A DNA stretch of 64,000 bases, from positions 1-64,000 of the forward strand of contig JAJZUQ010000010.1 in NCBI GenBank assembly GCA_021848385.1, read 5' to 3'. The translations under genes and the position numbers were made by a program. The notes beneath the pieces are model-generated. The model worked only from the letters and a program-made list of their open reading frames with translations. It was not told where the DNA came from and searched no databases. Every line of letters starts with the position of its first letter. The first letter of the stretch is position 1. Source of the stretch: Deltaproteobacteria bacterium. Its GTDB lineage: Bacteria > Desulfobacterota > Desulfuromonadia > Geobacterales > Geobacteraceae. Shown here in pieces: positions 9,213 through 49,902 of the stretch.

Positions 9213-9965
9213 CTATTCAAGTGTCATGCCGTCGTAGGCGAATTCGATCCCCGCCGGCAGCTTCGACCCGTCACGATAGGGGACTTCGTGGGTCAGATGG
9301 GTGAAAATGGCTCGTTCCGGCTTGAGCCGGGCAACCACGTCCAATGCCCCCGCGATGTTGAAGTGGTTGTCGTGGGGGGTATAGCGCAGGGCGTCGATTA
9401 TCAGAATCCTCAGCCCGGTGAGAAGGTTGAGGGAATCAGCCGGAATCCGGCTGCAGTCGGTCAGGTACGCCATGTCGCCGAACCGGTAGCCGGTAGTGGG
9501 CATTTCCCCGTGCAGGAGCGGAACCGGAACAATGGCTGCGCCGAAAAGTGCGAACGGTCCGGTTACGACGTGGGGGTCAAGGAGTGGTGCGTACCCCGCC
9601 GATGACTGCCCCTGGAAGATGTACGCGAAGTTCCGGGAGATGACCGCCATGGTTTCCTCACTGCCGTAACAGGGAACGACCCGCTTGTGGATGAAGTGGA
9701 AGCCGCGCAGATCGTCGATTCCGTGGATATGGTCGGCATGGGAATGGGTAAACAACACCGCGTCGATACGCGGGAGATTCTCACGGATGGCCTGTTTCCT
9801 CAGATCGGTGGAGGTGTCCACCAGGATGTAGCGGCCGTCGATCTCGACGACGATTGAGGCACGCGTCCTTTTGTCCCGCGGGTCGCCAGAGAGACAGACC
9901 GGGCAACGGCAACCGACCATCGGCACACCGGTTGACGTTCCGCTGCCGAGAACGGTTATTTTCAT
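9213..9965 (-). CDS. MBL-fold metallo-hydrolase (PhnP-like)
   Basis: This 250-aa cytosolic protein starts MKITVLGSGTSTGVPMVGC. It carries the metallo-beta-lactamase zinc motif THSHADHIHG at about residue 73, further ligands including H in LLHGEMPTTG, Asp in LTDCSRI and His in FTHLTHE, and a Cys pair (CRCPVC) near residue 20 typical of PhnP-type phosphodiesterases. PhnP hydrolyses cyclic phosphodiesters. Other members of the same group act in RNA processing or are uncharacterised, so the substrate is open. No phosphonate genes are nearby. The gene precedes the 616-aa unknown ORF in the same direction. Confidence 0.8.
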   Translation of the reverse strand: MKITVLGSGTSTGVPMVGCRCPVCLSGDPRDKRTRASIVVEIDGRYILVDTSTDLRKQAIRENLPRIDAVLFTHSHADHIHGIDDLRGFHFIHKRVVPCYGSEETMAVISRNFAYIFQGQSSAGYAPLLDPHVVTGPFALFGAAIVPVPLLHGEMPTTGYRFGDMAYLTDCSRIPADSLNLLTGLRILIIDALRYTPHDNHFNIAGALDVVARLKPERAIFTHLTHEVPYRDGSKLPAGIEFAYDGMTLE

Positions 9966-40196: not shown

Positions 40197-40213
40197 AAAG
40201 AGAAGGTCTTGTG

Positions 40214-40306
40214 GTCCGCTTCCCTACGCCGGCGTTAACCGGATCAGGTTCAAAGGGTTGTCCGCTCCTGTTCGGATGGGACTCTCAGCCGAAACACCCC
40301 CAGCGA
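40214..40306 (-). ncRNA. TPP riboswitch (THI element)
   Basis: On the minus strand the conserved segments appear in order: GGGGGTGTTTCGGCTGAGAG, ACCCTTTGAACCTGATC, and GGTTAACGCCGGCGTAGGGAAG. This is the standard TPP-binding aptamer in the leader of the thiSGE operon. Confidence 0.97.
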
Positions 40307-40373
40307 GATAGCGCCGATATGCGGTTGTCGAACGTCGTGCAGGGTGGGCTCGCACGACAGCAATTCGGTATGT

Positions 40374-41072: not shown

Positions 41073-41900
41073 TCAGCTGCCGGGGAGGTCCCCCTGTTTA
41101 CGCTGTGACCGGGATTCTCTCAGCTGTCTGGATGTCTGATGAAGGGTGTCGGCAACTTCCTTCAACTCCCCATCCAGGGAAGGAGGAGGAGTGTCAATGC
41201 TGCCGCCACGGAGTTCTGCCGCGTAGCTCCGCAGTAATTGAAGCGGTACAAAGACGCTGCGGCGCAGGAGTGCCGCCACACCACCAATTGTGAGGATAAG
41301 GATCATGAGGGTGAAGACGGCCATCCTCTCCCCCAGGGTTATGAGTGTTTTTCTCAGCGGTTCCTGGGAGAGGCCTATGTCGAGAGTCCCCAGAACCTTC
41401 TGGCTCTCGTTGTGGTAGTGGCAGGGGGCAGTGTAACAGGACGGTTCGTTGTAGATAGGGGCTGTTATGGCCAGAACCTTTACCCCCTTTCTGTTTTTGA
41501 ACTGCCGGGCTTGCTCCATTTTTCCGAGGGTGGTTAGCGGTTTCGGGCCGCTGTGACAACCAATACATCCCGCCTCCTTCTTGTCGACGAGATGGTTCAA
41601 TTCGTCGCTTGCGGCGGAGAACATGACGGTCCCCTTCTTGTTGAAGATGCGAACATGCTCCACTCCCTGCTGGTCGCCGACGTTGCGGATGATGTTTCCG
41701 AGCGTTTCTCGATCCGACTTTAGCATGGCGTAGCGAGTAGATTTGACGATGGTGTCGGCAAGATTCGCAGCGTGCTGCATTGCATCACGGGTCATATCCC
41801 GTTTCATGACTGAATAGAGGAGCAGACAGCAGACTACGACGAAACCTGTTATGGCAAGGGCGACCGGGACTATGGCCCGGGCGGAAAAGCTCTTCGGCAT
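41073..41900 (-). CDS. Membrane sensor-like protein with periplasmic heme motifs
   Basis: This 275-aa protein has an N-terminal membrane helix (IVPVALAITGFVVVCCLLLYSV), a periplasmic domain and a second helix (MAVFTLMILILTIGGVAAL) followed by a HAMP-like helical region. The periplasmic part holds CIGCH, a c-type heme site, and SCYTAPCHYH, a CX4CH variant. The same pair of motifs occurs in the histidine kinase at 48271-49902. It has no kinase, cyclase or methyl-accepting domain, so it may pass a redox signal to a partner or bind heme for electron transfer. Its position matches CbcD in my memory of Cbc5. Confidence 0.65.
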   Translation of the reverse strand: MPKSFSARAIVPVALAITGFVVVCCLLLYSVMKRDMTRDAMQHAANLADTIVKSTRYAMLKSDRETLGNIIRNVGDQQGVEHVRIFNKKGTVMFSAASDELNHLVDKKEAGCIGCHSGPKPLTTLGKMEQARQFKNRKGVKVLAITAPIYNEPSCYTAPCHYHNESQKVLGTLDIGLSQEPLRKTLITLGERMAVFTLMILILTIGGVAALLRRSVFVPLQLLRSYAAELRGGSIDTPPPSLDGELKEVADTLHQTSRQLRESRSQRKQGDLPGS

Positions 41901-42053: not shown

Positions 42054-43043
42054 TTACATGCTTGGATGACATTTAAGGCAGTCTTCCCGCACGGTGAAGG
42101 CTGTTTTGCCGTCGTGGCATGCTCCGCAGGATTTACCCTCTCCCATTGCCAACATTGATACTGGCTTGCTTTTCTTTTTCCCCTGGGGGTAGATGCGGGC
42201 ATGGCAATCGCTGCACTTGTAGATGCTCATGTGCACCTTGTGGCTGAACTTGGCATTCCCTGCGCCAGTCACCTTGAACTCCACATCCTTTACTGCGTGG
42301 CACTTGGAGCAATCCGCCACGCTGAAGCCGTCCTTGCCGTTATGGCATGCACCGCACGACTTCCCTTTCTCCATTTCCGCCATGGTCACCCGTTTATTGT
42401 GGCCTGCGGCGAAGAGTCTGGTATGACAATCTCCGCATTGGTACATCTCGATATGTTTTTTGTGGCTGAAAGGGGTAGGCCCGGTCTCTTTGACCTGGAA
42501 CGATATCTCTTTTACCGGATGGCAGGTGGTGCACTTGTCGAGGCTGAACGCTTTCTTGCCGTTGTGACAGGCACCACAGGACTTCCCTTTGCCCATTTCC
42601 GCCATGGTCACCGGTTTTGTGGGTCCGGTGGGATAGAGGGCGGGATGGCAGGTGCCGCACGTGGGGGTGGCGGGGAGGTGGACATTATGGCTGAAACGGG
42701 TAGGCCCGGTCGCTTTGACCTGGAAGATGACGTCCTTCACCTTGTGACATCTGGCGCAATCTTTGAGGGGAAAGGCGCTCTTGCCGTGGCAGGCGCCGCA
42801 GGATTTCCCCTTGTCCATGTCTGCCATGGTGTAGGTCACCCTTTTCCTCATGCTGAAGATGGCATCGTGACAGGCCTTGCAGTTGTTGTTTATCCCCTTC
42901 TGGCGGATGTGCTGTTTGTGGCTGAAAATTACCTTGCCTCCTCCTTTGGAGGTGTAGGTGACGTCCCTGAGATCCAGCGCAATGGCCATAACGGCTGAGA
43001 ATGTAACAACAAGAGCAGTGAGAAGGATGAAGCGGAATTTCAT
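42054..43043 (-). CDS. cbcC: Dodecaheme c-type cytochrome with four triheme repeats
   Basis: This 329-aa exported protein starts with a signal peptide (MKFRFILLTALVVTFSAVMA) and has 12 CXXCH motifs in four repeated triheme units of about 75 residues. Each has the pattern FSHxxH...CxxCH...MxxMxxGKSCGACH...CxxCH, similar to cytochrome c7 repeats of the 'nanowire' class, in which Met and His residues are axial ligands. It probably carries electrons across the periplasm. It has its own promoter and follows the cbcBA terminator. The symbol rests on recollection of the G. sulfurreducens Cbc5 cluster. Confidence 0.8.
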   Translation of the reverse strand: MKFRFILLTALVVTFSAVMAIALDLRDVTYTSKGGGKVIFSHKQHIRQKGINNNCKACHDAIFSMRKRVTYTMADMDKGKSCGACHGKSAFPLKDCARCHKVKDVIFQVKATGPTRFSHNVHLPATPTCGTCHPALYPTGPTKPVTMAEMGKGKSCGACHNGKKAFSLDKCTTCHPVKEISFQVKETGPTPFSHKKHIEMYQCGDCHTRLFAAGHNKRVTMAEMEKGKSCGACHNGKDGFSVADCSKCHAVKDVEFKVTGAGNAKFSHKVHMSIYKCSDCHARIYPQGKKKSKPVSMLAMGEGKSCGACHDGKTAFTVREDCLKCHPSM

Positions 43044-43215: not shown

Positions 43216-43854
43216 TCAGTGATGCCCTTCTGATTCTTCCCATCCGGTCCACATCGGTTTGAAGTGGGCGAACGGGGTATGTCCCATGGTTGCCAAATAG
43301 ACGTGGACGAAGAGAAAGGCCAGGAAGGAGCAGGCGATGAGGTAGTGGGCGCTGACGAGCATCTTGATGCCACCGGCAACGAGGATCAGTTCCCGCAAAG
43401 GCGCAACATTCATGATCAGTATGCCGGTAAAAATCACCAGGGGGAGGAGCACCAGCATTATCACGAGGTAGCCGGCCTTCTGCAACGGGTTGAACTTGTT
43501 ATCCGGCGTTTCATGATGGGGGTTGGGGCTCCCCTTGAAGTAATAGAAGCAGTAAAAGAGCGCCTGGCGCAGAAAACCGCGTTTGATGTCCTCCAGATTC
43601 GGTACGTAGAGCTTTGCCAGGCTGCGGGTCACGAACATATAGTAGAAGAGCCAGAGAAAATAGGAGATGGATACTACGATGCCGGCGGTGTTATGGAGAC
43701 GGATGGCGGCCTTGTAGGTGCCGAAGATGTTTACATACTCGGGAAAACGTATCTGCAGACCGGTGATGCAGAGAGTGACGATACCGAGGGCATTAAGCCA
43801 ATGCCAGATCCTGACCGGCATGGGGGTGAGGTAGATGTATTCAGTGGGTTTCAT
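43216..43854 (-). CDS. cbcB: Membrane cytochrome b, quinone-oxidising subunit
   Basis: This 212-aa integral membrane protein has four or five helices and candidate heme-b His residues (IWHWLNALG, IRLHNTAGI, SAHYLIACSFLAFLFVHVYLA). It resembles the cytochrome b561/thiosulfate-reductase gamma fold. It should accept electrons from menaquinol and pass them to the adjacent heptaheme cytochrome. The ATG at 43854 is two bases after the upstream TGA; the track start lies inside that gene and is wrong. The symbol follows my recollection of Cbc5. Confidence 0.8.
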   Translation of the reverse strand: MKPTEYIYLTPMPVRIWHWLNALGIVTLCITGLQIRFPEYVNIFGTYKAAIRLHNTAGIVVSISYFLWLFYYMFVTRSLAKLYVPNLEDIKRGFLRQALFYCFYYFKGSPNPHHETPDNKFNPLQKAGYLVIMLVLLPLVIFTGILIMNVAPLRELILVAGGIKMLVSAHYLIACSFLAFLFVHVYLATMGHTPFAHFKPMWTGWEESEGHH

Positions 43855-43856
43855 GT

Positions 43857-44915
43857 TCAGTGCTCCTTTCTGTTTTTCCGGGTCAGGAATCGGAATGTGC
43901 CATGGCCGATCGGCACCATAAGCCCGCCGGCAAGGATGAGGGCGCCGACGATGTTGAGCGGCGTGCTCCGGGTCGAGCCCATCATGTAGAAGTCGGGGGT
44001 GCCGTAGAGGAGGTCGAGCACCGCACCTTTTTCCACGGCAACGCGGCTGTATGTTCCGTTCTGATCGGGGAATGCCACATAACTGGTCTGCATTGTCTTC
44101 GGACCGGCGGCGTGGCAGAAAGAGCAGTCCCACCGATTGTCGAGGATCTGGTAGCTGTGGGTGACGACTTCCGGGGTCATCATCCCCCAGAGACGCATGT
44201 CTTTCCTCCGTGCTTCGATGTTGAACTTCCGGAGTTCCTGCAGCGAAATGGAGCCGTCTCCGTTCTTGTCAACGAGGCTCTTGATATCCTTCCCTGCGGG
44301 GACGAGACGGGCGAGTTCCTCGTAGGTGGCGACCTTGAAATCAGCGTGTTTTTTCTTCTCGGGCCGATCCTGTATGTACAGGGTGATCACGTAGTTCTTT
44401 GAGCCGGTATGGCAGGTTATGCAGGGGATTGCGTCCATGTGGAGGTCGGCCTGGGGAAGCCACTTGGCGTGGCTGGTAATGATCTTTTGAGTGCCATGAC
44501 ACTTGGCGCACTGGGCATTGATGTCATCACCCGACACGCTTAAAGGCTTCTTCACGGTATGGGGATTGTGACAATCGTTGCAGGCGGCCTTACTGCCGTG
44601 AAGGCTTTGGGCATATTCGCTCTGGATTGCGCTGTGGCATTCCTTGCATCTTGCCTTAGGAGGTCTGAAGCCATCCTGCGGGTGGCCTGGCGTGACACCT
44701 TCGTGGCAGGACGTGCAGCCGATCATGGCATGGGTTGTAGCGGCAAACTTGGCCTCATCGACATAAAGGCGTTCCCCCCCCTTGCCGACAATATCCTTGC
44801 TGCCGTGGCAGCTGAGACATTTCCCGTTCTCTGCTCCCGTTGCGGCTGCGACGCTGACGACCGACAGCACCAACATGATTAGATACGACATGAGCCTGCA
44901 TGTTTGCATATTCAC
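43857..44915 (-). CDS. cbcA: Heptaheme c-type cytochrome with EF-hand and C-terminal membrane anchor
   Basis: This 352-aa protein has an N-terminal signal region, seven CXXCH motifs (CLSCH, CTSCH, CKECH, CNDCH, CAKCH, CITCH and CSFCH), and a C-terminal membrane helix ([18 protein letters not shown]). Between the sixth and seventh hemes is an EF-hand loop, [13 protein letters not shown], which should bind calcium. The GTG start follows GAGGAGG by six bases. It is co-encoded with the cytochrome b and likely forms a periplasm-facing menaquinol oxidoreductase with it. An EF-hand inside a multiheme cytochrome is unusual. Confidence 0.82.
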
Positions 44916-44974: not shown

Positions 44975-45226
44975 TTAGTTTGAGTCCTGGTTCGTCACTC
45001 TTTCAGTAGCCTCTACCGGAGTTTCTTCTCCCCTCACGGGAGAGCGGAAGGCAGCAATGACAGCCCTGATTCCGTGGGGTACGATGATTATCGCGCAGTA
45101 TGCCACGAAAACCCAGAAGACGATACCGATCAGATCCTCGGGAGGTCCACCGGTTGCGGCATGGGACGGCAAGACGGATGCCAATACAAAGGTGACAGGT
45201 GTCAAAATGTGGACAGCTTTTTTCAT
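44975..45226 (-). CDS. Small membrane protein, cytochrome-locus paralog 3
   Basis: This 83-aa protein has a Sec signal (MKKAVHILTPVTFVLASVLPSHA) and one hydrophobic segment (IGIVFWVFVAYCAIIIVPHGI), then a charged tail. It resembles the 78-aa and 82-aa products upstream in the operon in length, order of segments and spacing. GGGAGG precedes the ATG. Its function is unknown; a scaffold or accessory role for the cytochrome b complex is plausible. Confidence 0.65.
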   Translation of the reverse strand: MKKAVHILTPVTFVLASVLPSHAATGGPPEDLIGIVFWVFVAYCAIIIVPHGIRAVIAAFRSPVRGEETPVEATERVTNQDSN

Positions 45227-45266
45227 AGCAACCTCCCGCGTCAGCGTCCGACCGTTACATCGTGGA

Positions 45267-45503
45267 TTATTTTGTCGCAGTCTGGTGCGCCACTTCCCTC
45301 TCCTTGCTGATCCCTTTCGCGAATCCCAGGGTTACCATGACTGCAGGTATCAACTGGGCGGCCACGATCAGGGCACAGAACCCAAGGAATATCCAGACGA
45401 ACATTCCACTATTGTCCTCCCGTGCTCCTGATGCGGCGAAAGCTGTTGAAGCGGACCCGATAACCAGTGCCAAAGAGCTTTTTAAAGATGTTCCCGTTTT
45501 CAT
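45267..45503 (-). CDS. Small membrane protein, cytochrome-locus paralog 2
   Basis: This 78-aa protein starts at ATG 45503 (AAGGAGGACATC upstream); the longer track ORF is unlikely. It has a signal peptide (MKTGTSLKSSLALVIGSASTAFA), then ASGAREDNSGMF and the membrane segment WIFLGFCALIVAAQLIPAVM. The mature part is clearly paralogous to the 82-aa product at 45999-46247 (ASGAxxxxxG, LGFxALI, QL(I/V)P). The function is unknown. Confidence 0.7.
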   Translation of the reverse strand: MKTGTSLKSSLALVIGSASTAFAASGAREDNSGMFVWIFLGFCALIVAAQLIPAVMVTLGFAKGISKEREVAHQTATK

Positions 45504-45558
45504 GATGTCCTCCTTGTAATGATGTGCTTGTACGTTCTGCTGCCCGCATGGCAGCTGT

Positions 45559-45945
45559 TTACCATTTATGGTTGGCCTGGAGCTGGTTGAGATTTTCAAA
45601 GGCGCATTGCACCGCCTCACGAATTTCATCTTTGTCCTGCTTCAATGCGTGGAAGAAAATCCCCTCGCGCCGAACCTTGCGAATCAGGGGGAGAGAAACC
45701 TCGTCGGAGACCAGGATGATGGTCAGGTTGCGGTTGCATTTCTTCAGAAGCGGAATCAGATCGACGGCGGTCAACTCATCGAACTCGCTCCCGAGAATTA
45801 CTACCTGCGCGGACTTTTTCAGGATTCCATAGAGAGCCGTGACTGCCGAGTTTGTTACGGTGACGTTGTAACCAGCCTCGATAAAGATGTCAGCCATCTG
45901 TTTGCGGGCATCCACGTCTTTGTCTGCAATGAGAAGTCCTAACAT
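45559..45945 (-). CDS. Response-regulator receiver domain lacking the phosphoacceptor Asp
   Basis: This 128-aa stand-alone receiver-like domain starts MLGLLIADKDVDARKQMADIF, the usual first strand with acidic residues. The phosphorylation position after beta-strand 3, normally LLD, reads VVILGSEFDEL, so the Asp appears replaced by Gly. The Thr/Ser region (IILVSDE) and Lys region (FFHALKQD) are partly retained. It is probably an unphosphorylated protein-interaction domain. It lies between two small membrane protein genes in the cytochrome operon. Confidence 0.7.
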   Translation of the reverse strand: MLGLLIADKDVDARKQMADIFIEAGYNVTVTNSAVTALYGILKKSAQVVILGSEFDELTAVDLIPLLKKCNRNLTIILVSDEVSLPLIRKVRREGIFFHALKQDKDEIREAVQCAFENLNQLQANHKW

Positions 45946-45998
45946 GGTGGTGTCCCTCTCTTTCCAGGGTAACTGTCCAAGGGGGGATCGTGCGGCCC

Positions 45999-46247
45999 TC
46001 AGGCAGATTCCCCGCCGTTACTTCTCTTTGCCATTGACGTTTCGGTGGCGGATTTGGAGAAAATCCCTTTGAGCATGGATCCGAACAGCACCATTCCCGG
46101 CACCAGCTGAAAGGCGATGATGAGGGCCCCGAAGCCAAGGAACAAAGTGACCAGCAGGCCATTCCCTTCCGTTCCTGCGCCGGAAGCGGCGACGGCTGAC
46201 GAACAGGCTATCAGGAGCATGGCGATGATGTTGGTTAAAGTTTTCAT
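45999..46247 (-). CDS. Small membrane protein, cytochrome-locus paralog 1
   Basis: This 82-aa protein is the first gene after the sigma54 promoter. It has a signal peptide (MKTLTNIIAMLLIACSSAVA), then ASGAGTEGNG and the membrane segment LFLGFGALIIAFQLVPGMVL, with a charged tail. AAGGAGGACGTC precedes the ATG. It is paralogous to the 78-aa and, less closely, the 83-aa proteins downstream. No family is recognised. Confidence 0.7.
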   Translation of the reverse strand: MKTLTNIIAMLLIACSSAVAASGAGTEGNGLLVTLFLGFGALIIAFQLVPGMVLFGSMLKGIFSKSATETSMAKRSNGGESA

Positions 46248-46294: not shown

Positions 46295-46310
46295 TGCACT
46301 GGATGTGCCA
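46295..46310 (-). promoter_or_regulatory. Sigma54 (-24/-12) promoter of the cytochrome operon
   Basis: Minus strand TGGCACATCCAGTGCA matches the consensus TGGCAC-N5-TTGCA at nearly all informative positions, with the -24 GG and -12 GC exactly 12 bases apart. It lies about 50 bp upstream of the first small gene. The divergent NtrC-type activator is the likely regulator. Confidence 0.85.
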
Positions 46311-46839
46311 CAATAAGCCATGATTTATTAAATATTTCTAACTAGCTGTTTTTGTTGGATATAATTCTCGCGAGGCGGTGTGCCGGGCCGATGATTAACC
46401 GTCAAAATGTATAGTTAACTTATGCGGGTGAGAGACGGATACCCCCCCGGTTTTTTTCTTGCTGGGGGTGTAGTATTCAATGATACCAGCAGGTTAAGTG
46501 CCTGATGAATGGATGCATAAAAAAAATATACGCGCTTACGTCAAGTGTGTGTAGTGCCAAAACAGACGCAAAGCCTTTCCCTTAGCCATTCTGACGCCAT
46601 AATTCAACTTTGACGTGCATGTTTATGGGGATTTATAGGGTTTGACTTGTGTGGCGAAATACGGTATTTTTTGAAAAAGTTCATTATATCCCGCAAACTG
46701 GCGGCTGTTCTAGGCTCAGAATCACGACTGTCTCCGAAGCGACGTCACGTGGGGCAGCAGGTAGCTTCCTGTTTGTAACTTTTCCGGCAATGAACCGCAC
46801 CAGGCCGAGTCGCAAGTCAATTGGGAAGGGAGTTCTGAA
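46311..46839. other. Divergent intergenic regulatory region
   Basis: About 530 bp without a credible ORF lie between the sigma54 promoter and the NtrC-type regulator gene. It is AT-rich. Visible items are imperfect palindromes near 46441-46491 (TGCTGG/CCAGCA enclosing GTAT-N6-ATAC) that could be activator sites upstream of the sigma54 promoter, CTTTGACGT repeated near 46271 and 46611, and the sigma70-like promoter of the regulator. The activator-site assignment is a guess. Confidence 0.4.
46642..46670 (+). promoter_or_regulatory. Promoter of the NtrC-type regulator gene
   Basis: TTGACT, 17-bp spacer and TATTTT lie about 170 bp upstream of the regulator start. Confidence 0.55.
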
Positions 46840-48255
46840 ATGGAAGTAATTGACGTTCTCGTGGTTGATGACGAAGCGATTATTCGTGAAGGGCTCAAGC
46901 GAATTCTGGAACATAAAGGGTACAATGTCGCGAGTTCTGCAAGCGGCCAGCATGCGTTGGAATGCATGCAGAAGGAAAATTTCGGGTTGGTGATTACTGA
47001 CCTGAAAATGCCGGGAATGAGCGGCATGGAGGTGCTTAAGGCGATCAAGGTTCTGCAGCCCGAAGTTCCTGTCATAATCATTACCGGCTATTCCACGGTA
47101 GACACTGCGGTGGAGGCGATGAAGAATGGTGCGTTCGACTATATTGCGAAGCCGTTCACGCCCGATCAAATTCTTGAGAAGGTAAGCAAGGCTCTCGAAC
47201 AGAAGGCGATGATACAGGAGAATCTTTACCTGAAGAAAGAGCTGGGAGAGCACAACGGTTTTGATATGTTCATAGGTGAAAGCCGCGAAATGCAAAAGGT
47301 TTACCGCCGGATAATGCAGGTGGCTCCTACTGACAGCACTGTTCTTGTAACCGGTGAGTCCGGGACGGGGAAAGAACTTGTGGCTCAGGCAATTCACCGG
47401 CATAGTAAGCGCAGGGAGCAGCCCTTTGTGGCGGTGGACTGCACCTCCCTGTCCGAGAATCTACTCGAGAGCGAACTTTTCGGCCACATAAAGGGGTCGT
47501 TCACCGGAGCCATACAGACAAAAACCGGCCTCTTCAAGGTTGCCGACGGTGGCACGCTTTTCCTCGACGAAGTAGCCAACATCAGTCTCACTACCCAGGC
47601 CAAGCTTCTGCGCGTTCTCCAGGAACGGGAGATTACACCTATCGGCGGCACCCAGCCGGTTCCCATCGACATCCGGCTGGTGGCGGCCAGCAACAAGGGA
47701 CTGCGCGAGATGGTAGCCAACGGCACCTTCCGGGAGGACCTTTTTTTCCGGCTCAACATCATTCCCATCGACCTTCCCCCTCTGCGGGAACGCACAGGGG
47801 ATATTCCCCTTCTTATCGGTCATTTTTTGCGGGAGTTTTCTGAAGAGATGGGGAAAGATCTCAGGGGGTTGGCTCCCGATGCGCGGGCACTCATGGAAGA
47901 ATACCCCTTTCCGGGCAACGTCCGGGAACTGGAAAACATCATTGAGCGGGCTGTCGTGCTGGCTGAAGGGACCATGATCCAGCGGGAGGACCTGGAGATG
48001 CAGGTTATGGGGGAGGAGCAGCCGGAGCAGTCAGGCGATTACGTGCCGTTGAATGCCGACGAACTCAAGGAAACCAAGCGCCAGATAAGGGAGCGGGCTG
48101 TCGAGCCTGTCGAAAAGGCCTTCGTCCTCCATGCCCTCAAACGGAATAACTGGAATATTACCCGGGCGGCAGAGGAAACCGGAATGCTTCGCCCCAATTT
48201 TCAGGCACTCCTGAAGAAACTCAAGATTTCGGTCCGCGACGAAGCCAATAGCTGA
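46840..48255 (+). CDS. NtrC-family sigma54-dependent response regulator
   Basis: This 471-aa protein has a receiver domain (residues about 1-120; phospho-Asp in LVITDLKMPGMSG), an AAA+ domain with Walker A GESGTGKE, the sigma54 loop as GSFTGA rather than GAFTGA, and Walker B GGTLFLDEV, and a C-terminal Fis-type helix-turn-helix (WNITRAAEETGMLRPNFQALLKKL). GSFTGA occurs in some activators. It is convergent with the heme-motif histidine kinase, whose stop is 15 bp away. It is divergent from the sigma54-promoter cytochrome operon, which it probably activates. GGGAAGGGAG precedes the start. Confidence 0.93.
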   Translation: MEVIDVLVVDDEAIIREGLKRILEHKGYNVASSASGQHALECMQKENFGLVITDLKMPGMSGMEVLKAIKVLQPEVPVIIITGYSTVDTAVEAMKNGAFDYIAKPFTPDQILEKVSKALEQKAMIQENLYLKKELGEHNGFDMFIGESREMQKVYRRIMQVAPTDSTVLVTGESGTGKELVAQAIHRHSKRREQPFVAVDCTSLSENLLESELFGHIKGSFTGAIQTKTGLFKVADGGTLFLDEVANISLTTQAKLLRVLQEREITPIGGTQPVPIDIRLVAASNKGLREMVANGTFREDLFFRLNIIPIDLPPLRERTGDIPLLIGHFLREFSEEMGKDLRGLAPDARALMEEYPFPGNVRELENIIERAVVLAEGTMIQREDLEMQVMGEEQPEQSGDYVPLNADELKETKRQIRERAVEPVEKAFVLHALKRNNWNITRAAEETGMLRPNFQALLKKLKISVRDEANS

Positions 48256-48270
48256 TCCTGGACTCTACCC

Positions 48271-49902
48271 CTACAACGCAACCGAAGCCGGCCCCTCCCC
48301 ATCGCTTCCCTCCGATGTGTCCCCAACAGTCTCACCATCGGAAGGGAGCGGCAACCGGATAGTAAAGGCAGTTCCCTCACCAACGGTACTCTGCACCTCG
48401 ATTTTCCCTCCGTGACTCTCAATTATTCCGTAGGACACGGCAAGTCCGAGACCGGTCCCCAGATTTTCCTTAGTGGTAAAGAACGGGTCGAAAATCTTTC
48501 CGAGGTTTCCTTCCGGAATTCCGCACCCTGTGTCGCGGATGCAGATGAAAAGGCCGGTGTCGCCGCCTGTCAGGCCGGTGGAGATTGTCAGTGTCCCTCC
48601 GTTTGCCATGGCATGACTGGCGTTCACCATCATATTCACGAGCACCTGCTCGATCTGGTTCGGGTCGACGAGGGCCTGCGGCAGCGCATCATGGTAAGCC
48701 CTGACGACTGTGATATCGTGGAAACTCGACTGGTGTGTTACCAGCTCAAGGGTGGCGTCGATGAGGTCGTTGATCTGGGTCGGAATCTTGTGGGGTAGAG
48801 ACTCATGGGCAAAGTCGAGGAGCCCCCGGACAATCTTGGCGCAACGCTGGGTTTCCCGCCGGATCTTTTCCAGGTCTTCCTTGAGTTCCGGGTTGAGACG
48901 GGGATCGTCACCGACAAGGGAGGAAAATACCAGTATTCCCGTAAGGGGGTTGTTGATCTCATGGGCGATTCCTGCCACGAGTTCCCCCAGGGAGGCAAGT
49001 TTCTCCGAGCGGATCAGCTGGTCCTGAATCTGTTTCAGCTGTTGGGTTCGCTCATCAACTTTTACCTCAAGATTCCTGCCCCAGTCCTCCAGTTCGTCAC
49101 GCGCCTTTTTGAGGCTGACCGTCATAGTATTGAACGCGGCTGCAAGTTCACCCAGTTCGTCGCTTGAGGAGGTCAGGACTTTAGAGGTCAGTTCGCCGCG
49201 GGCGACCAGGTTCGTGTGCTTGAGGAGTTGCTTGACCGGACGGCTTACCAGCGCCTGGGTACAAAAGGTGATGCTTATCCAGATGAGCAGCAAGAGAAAG
49301 AACGTCAATGAGGTGAATTTATACCGGTAGGAGTTGGTAATGGCTATGACCTTGTCGAGGGACACCACGACATCAAGTACCCCCAGGACCCGGAAATTCT
49401 CAGGATGAAAGTGGCATTCCGCCGTGTAACAGCTCTCTTCGTTGTAGATTGCCTTGGCCAGCCCCAAAACCTGCTTACCCTTGGCATTGGTGAAAAAACG
49501 GCTCCGGTTCATGGACGATGCTTGGATCAGGGGGGTTGCTCCGGCATGACATACGTTGCAGGCGGCTGCCTTCTTGTCGACAAACGTGCCGATCTCATCG
49601 TCATTGGTGGAATAGATGATGCGGCCGTCCTTGTTGATCAGCCGGATACTTTCGACGCCGCTCTGGGTGCCCATCTCCTGGATCATCTGGTTTGCCCGCA
49701 TCCGGTCGTCATCCAGCATCTGGTGGTGGGTGGTCTTGATGATGGACTCGCTCAGATTTTCCACGTCAGAGATGGCTTCGTCGAGAAAAATCTTCTGGAG
49801 GGTCTCGATATTGATATAGGCGAACAGGGCCATTAATGCCAGCAATACGAGGCTGGTCGAAATGGCAAGTTTTGCTATGAGGCTGAGGCGGAGAATGGGC
49901 AA
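48271..49902 (-). CDS. Heme-sensing membrane histidine kinase
   Basis: This 543-aa sensor kinase has an N-terminal membrane helix, a periplasmic sensor domain with CNVCH and SCYTAECHFH (CXXCH plus a CX4CH variant), a second helix (FTSLTFFLLLLIWISITF), HAMP, a coiled coil, a dimerisation H-box (GIAHEINNPLTG) and an ATPase domain with N and G boxes (NASHAMANGG, DTGCGIP and GTGLGLAVSYG). Bound c-type heme would report periplasmic redox state. The likely partner is the convergent NtrC-type regulator. The same sensor motifs occur in the 275-aa protein at 41073-41900. Confidence 0.9.
   Translation of the reverse strand: MPILRLSLIAKLAISTSLVLLALMALFAYINIETLQKIFLDEAISDVENLSESIIKTTHHQMLDDDRMRANQMIQEMGTQSGVESIRLINKDGRIIYSTNDDEIGTFVDKKAAACNVCHAGATPLIQASSMNRSRFFTNAKGKQVLGLAKAIYNEESCYTAECHFHPENFRVLGVLDVVVSLDKVIAITNSYRYKFTSLTFFLLLLIWISITFCTQALVSRPVKQLLKHTNLVARGELTSKVLTSSSDELGELAAAFNTMTVSLKKARDELEDWGRNLEVKVDERTQQLKQIQDQLIRSEKLASLGELVAGIAHEINNPLTGILVFSSLVGDDPRLNPELKEDLEKIRRETQRCAKIVRGLLDFAHESLPHKIPTQINDLIDATLELVTHQSSFHDITVVRAYHDALPQALVDPNQIEQVLVNMMVNASHAMANGGTLTISTGLTGGDTGLFICIRDTGCGIPEGNLGKIFDPFFTTKENLGTGLGLAVSYGIIESHGGKIEVQSTVGEGTAFTIRLPLPSDGETVGDTSEGSDGEGPASVAL

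Follow-up and report, generated by a model that had tools for sequence, protein, structure and literature searches.

Which role do the small membrane proteins play whose genes stand at the head of a cytochrome operon? We addressed this question at the cbcBA (Cbc5) locus of a Geobacter genome, where a region of small genes occupies positions 44975-46247 of the window, the whole stretch of 64,000 nucleotides analyzed here. The initial annotation had read the region as three tandem copies of one membrane protein with a structural role. We call the three products p1, p2, and p3, and use SMP (small membrane protein) for any member of their family.

The small genes of a cbcBA locus

The operon is transcribed on the minus strand and begins with p1 (45999-46247), followed by a degenerate receiver-domain protein of 128 aa (45559-45945), p2 (45267-45503, with its start placed at the conserved Met), and p3 (44975-45226). 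Downstream are CbcA, a 7-heme cytochrome c (43857-44915, minus strand); CbcB, a b561-type cytochrome b (43216-43869, minus strand; Pfam Ni_hydr_CYTB, 1e-26); a 12-heme cytochrome c resembling CbcC/OmcQ (42054-43043, minus strand); and a HAMP-domain diheme protein resembling CbcD (41073-41900, minus strand). A sigma-54-dependent response regulator with an intact receiver is encoded divergently (46840-48255, plus strand; Pfam Sigma54_activat, 3.6e-70), in what we take to be the bccR position. Beyond it lies the gene for a histidine kinase (48271-49902, minus strand), recognized by domain match; the protein has a HAMP domain, its translated sensor part contains two c-type heme motifs, and it is probably the partner of this regulator. 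The set of four Cbc5 subunits (7-heme CbcA, b561-type CbcB, and the 12-heme and HAMP diheme proteins) is complete, and together with the genes for the divergent sigma-54 regulator and the heme-type kinase it matches the gene set of the cbcBA/Cbc5 locus of G. sulfurreducens. Subunit naming follows PMC7894505 and PMC7726332. In G. sulfurreducens, cbcBA is GSU0593-0594 according to passages of PMC12307469 that cite Joshi et al. 2021; judging from gene order, p1 is probably GSU0597, annotated as "hypothetical", and the receiver-like protein is probably GSU0596, annotated as "response receiver" (PMC10599522). The order p1-receiver-p2-p3-cbcA also occurs in Geobacter argillaceus.

Two side observations concern the surroundings. 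One is that the HAMP diheme protein has the same heme-bearing type of sensor architecture as the histidine kinase and looks like a copy of that sensor without the kinase. The window also contains a TPP riboswitch at 40204-40311 (Rfam RF00059, 62.9 bits) upstream of minus-strand ThiS/ThiG/ThiE-like genes; control of the operon by a riboswitch was discarded, as Rfam gave no match at the operon locus or the orphan locus.

We confirmed all three small genes, and their products of 82, 78, and 83 aa have the architecture first ascribed to them, a signal peptide, a short soluble piece, and one membrane segment. In each, an N-terminal hydrophobic segment with an AxA-type cleavage site at its end is followed by a gap of about 10 residues, predicted to be periplasmic, and then by one strongly hydrophobic 19-mer (mean Kyte-Doolittle value of 2.5-2.7). 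The proposed paralogy of p1 and p2 is borne out by a local alignment score of 122 against a block-shuffle mean of 34, with none of 1000 shuffles reaching 122. The suggested similarity of p3 to the other two holds as well: p2 and p3 score 81 against 29 (0 of 1000 shuffles), and the family profile places p3 at E 4.5e-18. Pairwise similarity between p1 and p3 alone is weak (49 of 1000 shuffles reach the score), and it is the profile that unites all three. A search of 9,454 ORFs with this profile identified 204 family members at E<=1e-7, the next match lying at 0.03. Within an alignment of about 230 members, Phe39 is conserved in nearly 100%, Gln50 in 97%, Pro53 in 95%, and the Ala at position -1 of the signal peptide in 96%. 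Between four species of the genus, dN/dS values are 0.07-0.22 for p1, 0.04-0.09 for p2, and 0.24-0.39 for p3. Hence, p1, p2, and p3 are real genes of one family. Short genes that belong to no database family could be chance or decaying ORFs, but the conservation and selection tests refute this: purifying selection, conservation across the phylum, and dedicated promoters leave it next to no probability.

Among 61 SMPs scanned against Pfam and NCBIfam no family was supported, with only sub-threshold scatter, and a PDB search for solved relatives found none (best E 0.14). The AlphaFold monomer has a signal helix at residues 6-24 and one long helix at 32-76, at low confidence (mean pLDDT 64). Thus p1, p2 (here of the RxD subtype, "ASGAREDNSG"), and p3 (the third or "YC" subtype) represent three subtypes within a single family of small inner-membrane proteins that is apparently undescribed. 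Some copies of the p1 subtype have no AxA cleavage site and apparently form a two-helix hairpin (L064:5329-5592, L067:7303-7551, L070:4667-4957, L078:11274-11540, and L091:7193-7507); these sit in CbcBA operons downstream of a co-directional sigma-54 regulator.

The degenerate receiver and the genomic contexts of the family

The three copies are not strictly tandem, since the receiver-like gene separates p1 from p2, and on this point the initial annotation has to be corrected. The intervening protein matches the response-regulator receiver profile (Pfam PF00072, Response_reg, 4.5e-8), and its best solved relatives are Spo0F. In contrast to PF00072 receivers, it has Gly in place of the phospho-acceptor Asp and Lys in place of the second residue of the acidic pair. 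Loss of the Asp and of part of the acidic pair is general in the class, the protein has no output domain, and its gene is flanked by, or fused to, those of small membrane proteins. The acceptor position was Gly in 30, Ser in 4, and Ala in 1 of the first 35 aligned copies, and Gly in 45, Asp in 8, Ser in 6, and Ala in 1 of 60 SMP-adjacent copies across the phylum. Thus, 52 of these 60 lack the Asp that, along with the acidic pair, marks a functional receiver; the eight that keep it are distant, and those inspected (in family f26, L154, and L156) do not have the acidic pair. The pseudo-receiver is almost frozen, with dN/dS of 0.00-0.02 between the four species of the genus.

Within a sample of 296 genomes of the phylum, SMPs are present in 32, and the receiver profile (E<=1e-20) also matches 32; 31 genomes have both, so that 31 of the 32 SMP-bearing genomes encode the receiver. 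In the loci that we read, receiver and SMP genes are mostly adjacent, and we therefore regard p1, p2, and the receiver as the conserved unit. In genus g13 (L070 and L078) and in L167, receiver and p2 are fused in frame and no internal start is evident; the former signal peptide region is a plain membrane segment there. The joined frames of L122, L129, L154, and L156 are weaker evidence of fusion because p2 has its own likely start there. The fusions are an argument for joint action of receiver and p2 at the membrane. The closest partner of the SMPs is the pseudo-receiver and not the cytochrome.

A receiver fold that has lost its phosphorylation site raises the possibility of signaling, in which SMPs would sense the state of the membrane or of the quinone pool and act jointly with the pseudo-receiver to adjust the heme-type kinase and BccR, giving feedback on the same promoter. 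Regulator and kinase genes adjoin most complex-linked loci, the fusions put the receiver at the membrane, and orphan SMP genes on the same promoter (see below) could give graded feedback. However, standalone modules and orphans often have no neighboring kinase or activator, and SMP genes far outnumber receivers per genome. We consider this reading rather unlikely.

We then searched relatives for copy number and gene order. The family is present in 47 of 58 relatives and, at the level of the class, in 116 of 146 genomes, with 1-17 copies each, and a search of named genomes with a single protein gave 9 loci. Absence from related loci, which would have spoken against a link with the cytochromes, was not what we saw: SMPs are conserved beside genes for cytochrome b and multiheme cytochromes c. 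CbcA orthologs are present in 100 of the 146 class genomes, and 98 of these 100 contain SMPs versus 18 of the 46 without CbcA (Fisher p 1e-15, a statistic that ignores kinship); SMPs were not detectable in two genomes with CbcA. p3-type copies precede CbcA in Geobacter argillaceus and in other genera.

The module also precedes a second complex, made up of a 5-heme cytochrome, a 4Fe-4S protein, and a protein of about 460 aa. Pfam confirmed the 4Fe-4S protein and, weakly, the cytochrome; the third had no Pfam match, and the designation "NrfD-like" is for this reason our inference. Next to CbcBA, p2 is of the RxD type (20 cases, plus two receiver fusions), and next to the FeS/NrfD-like complex it is of the VYxSG type in 13 of 13 cases; in L122, an additional, receiver-joined VY-like copy precedes the RxD copy. 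This match between p2 subtype and complex may reflect common descent only.

The linkage with cytochromes is strong but not obligatory. Neither complex nor receiver was found at 56 of 122 loci examined, and many SMP copies are orphans at a great distance from cytochrome genes. In genomes of family f26, the module stands mostly alone beside unrelated genes, often after peptide-transporter genes. Given these contexts, the complex-free loci, and the genomes without CbcA, cytochrome complexes cannot be the sole partner. The neighbors of orphan copies conserved across genera were generic regulators and transporters, and no others. The genome of the window has two further copies, tandem orphans with identical proteins (L008:8721-8951 and 9483-9713; genome G000, contig C117). 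These lie near hydrogenase-like genes, and other species of the genus have one orphan. A probable membrane protein of about 115-130 aa is encoded beside SMP genes in five genomes (L100, L102, L106, L113, and L117).

The same contexts bear on the structural role proposed at the outset, in which p1-p3, as stoichiometric subunits, would surround CbcB with a ring or a quinone channel. The near-constant presence of the family in CbcA genomes, the match of p2 subtypes to complexes, and the long conserved helix with its Gln and Pro are in line with it, and the large excess of SMP copies over complexes would fit a high-stoichiometry role. Single-helix subunits of respiratory oxidases of the CydX/CcoQ type, encoded with a quinol- or cytochrome-linked complex, offer a precedent that the SMPs resemble in both respects. 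They differ from it in having no Pfam or NCBIfam match (the 61 scanned members matched no described small-subunit family), a signal peptide, paralogous sets, many orphans, and a pseudo-receiver as partner. Light-harvesting-like antenna proteins, which form a closed ring around a quinone-reactive core, are a functional analogy only, the SMPs being known as a monomer prediction. Because of the many orphans and complex-free modules, a cbcA operon that has no SMP genes (in genome G009), and a constant partner that is the pseudo-receiver rather than a cytochrome, we find a ring or channel distinctly improbable.

A promoter common to the operon and the orphans

Upstream of p1 lies a sigma-54 -24/-12 element, TGGCACATCCAGTGCA (46295-46310, minus strand), with its 5' end 63 bp before the start codon. 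A predicted upstream activator palindrome, CGCATAAGTTAACTATACA (46408-46426, minus strand), starts 116 bp upstream of the -24 element and agrees at 10 of 12 positions with TGTATA-N7-TATACA. The divergent regulator at 46840-48255 is, from its position, probably the activator of this promoter.

We compared promoter-proximal SMP genes with internal copies and with other genes. The fraction with a sigma-54 element scoring >=17 is 90% for promoter-proximal genes (120 of 133), 10% for internal copies, and 17% for other genes; a cutoff of >=19 gives 57%, 1%, and 2%. The palindrome was obtained by unbiased repeat counting in the upstream regions. At >=10/12, it is present in 68% of promoter-proximal genes; the figure is 1.4% for other genes, 2.8% for shuffles, and 0% for internal copies. 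This enrichment is partly circular, since these upstream regions also supplied the motif. Most starts of the palindrome fall 101-105, 112-119, or 124-128 bp ahead of the -24 element (103/115/126), spacings that are one helical turn apart, and second sites occur near 205-230.

A genome-wide search for the composite promoter is a freer test. When the -24 element was relaxed to admit the form TGGCCC of the orphans, the genome of the window gave three matches, namely the p1 operon and both orphans. Each of the three other species of the genus yielded exactly the operon and the orphan; the reversed control pattern gave no match in the genome-wide search. With a stricter -24 element, 25 genomes yielded 35 matches, most of them before SMP genes, versus one control match. 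The composite promoter also precedes the SMP-free cbcA operon of G009. Further copies stand before genes for a formate dehydrogenase (L169:2302-2433) and for a hydrogenase-like small subunit plus FeS protein (L175:2427-2534), and before a cbcB-HAMP operon (L168:2705-2833); the matches in L170, L171, L173, and L174 look like chance.

This arrangement recalls the phage-shock protein PspG, a small inner-membrane protein encoded apart from the main operon under the same type of sigma-54 promoter. SMP orphans share with PspG the position outside the main operon and the promoter type; the differences are that we detected no sequence relation and that SMPs have a signal peptide, one helix, and a receiver partner. 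Proteins of general membrane adaptation, either PspG-like or a scaffold for intracytoplasmic membranes, could be induced on energy limitation and act on the bilayer rather than on one enzyme. Sigma-54 control of operon and orphans, up to 17 copies per genome, and the f26 genomes without the complexes would agree with this, as would the intracytoplasmic membranes that G. sulfurreducens is reported to form under limiting conditions (PMC10082016), although the portions of that paper available do not tie these membranes to SMP genes. The 61 scanned members had no profile match to PspG, phage-shock proteins, or other known membrane-stress families in Pfam and NCBIfam, and the complex-specific p2 subtypes would be left unexplained. 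We regard such a role as improbable.

Published expression data are available for the G. sulfurreducens genes. In a gsu1771 mutant, GSU0597, GSU0596, and GSU3409/GSU3410 change in concert (PMC10599522); GSU0597, GSU3409, and GSU3410 are lower in a csrA mutant (PMC11934962), and cbcA/cbcB and GSU3410 rise together under cobalt (PMC7726332). A hypothetical family with 10 members across six Geobacter genomes is named after GSU3410 (PMC2825233). From their tandem arrangement and co-regulation we infer that GSU3409 and GSU3410 are the orphan pair. The accessible Geobacter literature contained no described function of SMPs or the pseudo-receiver, and no description of the SMP family, the orphans, or the shared promoter.

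A possible accessory module for low-energy respiration

We tentatively favor, at slightly below an even chance, that p1, p2, p3, and the pseudo-receiver form an accessory module of the inner membrane that is induced via sigma-54 and serves menaquinone-linked low-energy respiration. The features behind this proposal can be read from sequence: the homology of the SMPs, their topology signals, the pseudo-receiver, the near-obligate pairing, the receiver-p2 fusions, and the promoter common to operon and orphans. A ring or quinone channel would be a narrower case of this accessory-module idea. After cleavage of the signal peptide, the SMPs would be oriented N-out/C-in, and p1 and p2, with p3 where present, would bundle via their Gln/Pro-containing helices. 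On the cytoplasmic side, the pseudo-receiver would dock as an adaptor that works independently of phosphorylation. Less certainly, the module may be made under energy-limited respiration via the heme-type kinase and BccR, and may serve as an accessory or assembly platform on menaquinone-reactive complexes, CbcBA and the FeS/NrfD-like complex, which it might stabilize or adjust in the membrane, the orphan genes perhaps supplying extra SMP copies. A bolder version, conceivable if on the unlikely side, is that Desulfuromonadia and related lineages have an undescribed inner-membrane apparatus that organizes or gates menaquinone-linked electron transfer close to the energetic limit. It would consist of hetero-oligomers of the three SMP types with a phosphorylation-dead receiver as their cap, made in large excess from many sigma-54-driven genes.

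Overall, the SMPs are now a defined family with a partner, the pseudo-receiver, and a regulon signature able to find members in a whole genome. The composite promoter offers a practical marker for genes of a low-energy respiratory regulon. If SMPs assist quinone-linked complexes, they would be missing parts of extracellular electron transfer; if they do not, they would represent a new sigma-54-induced membrane response.
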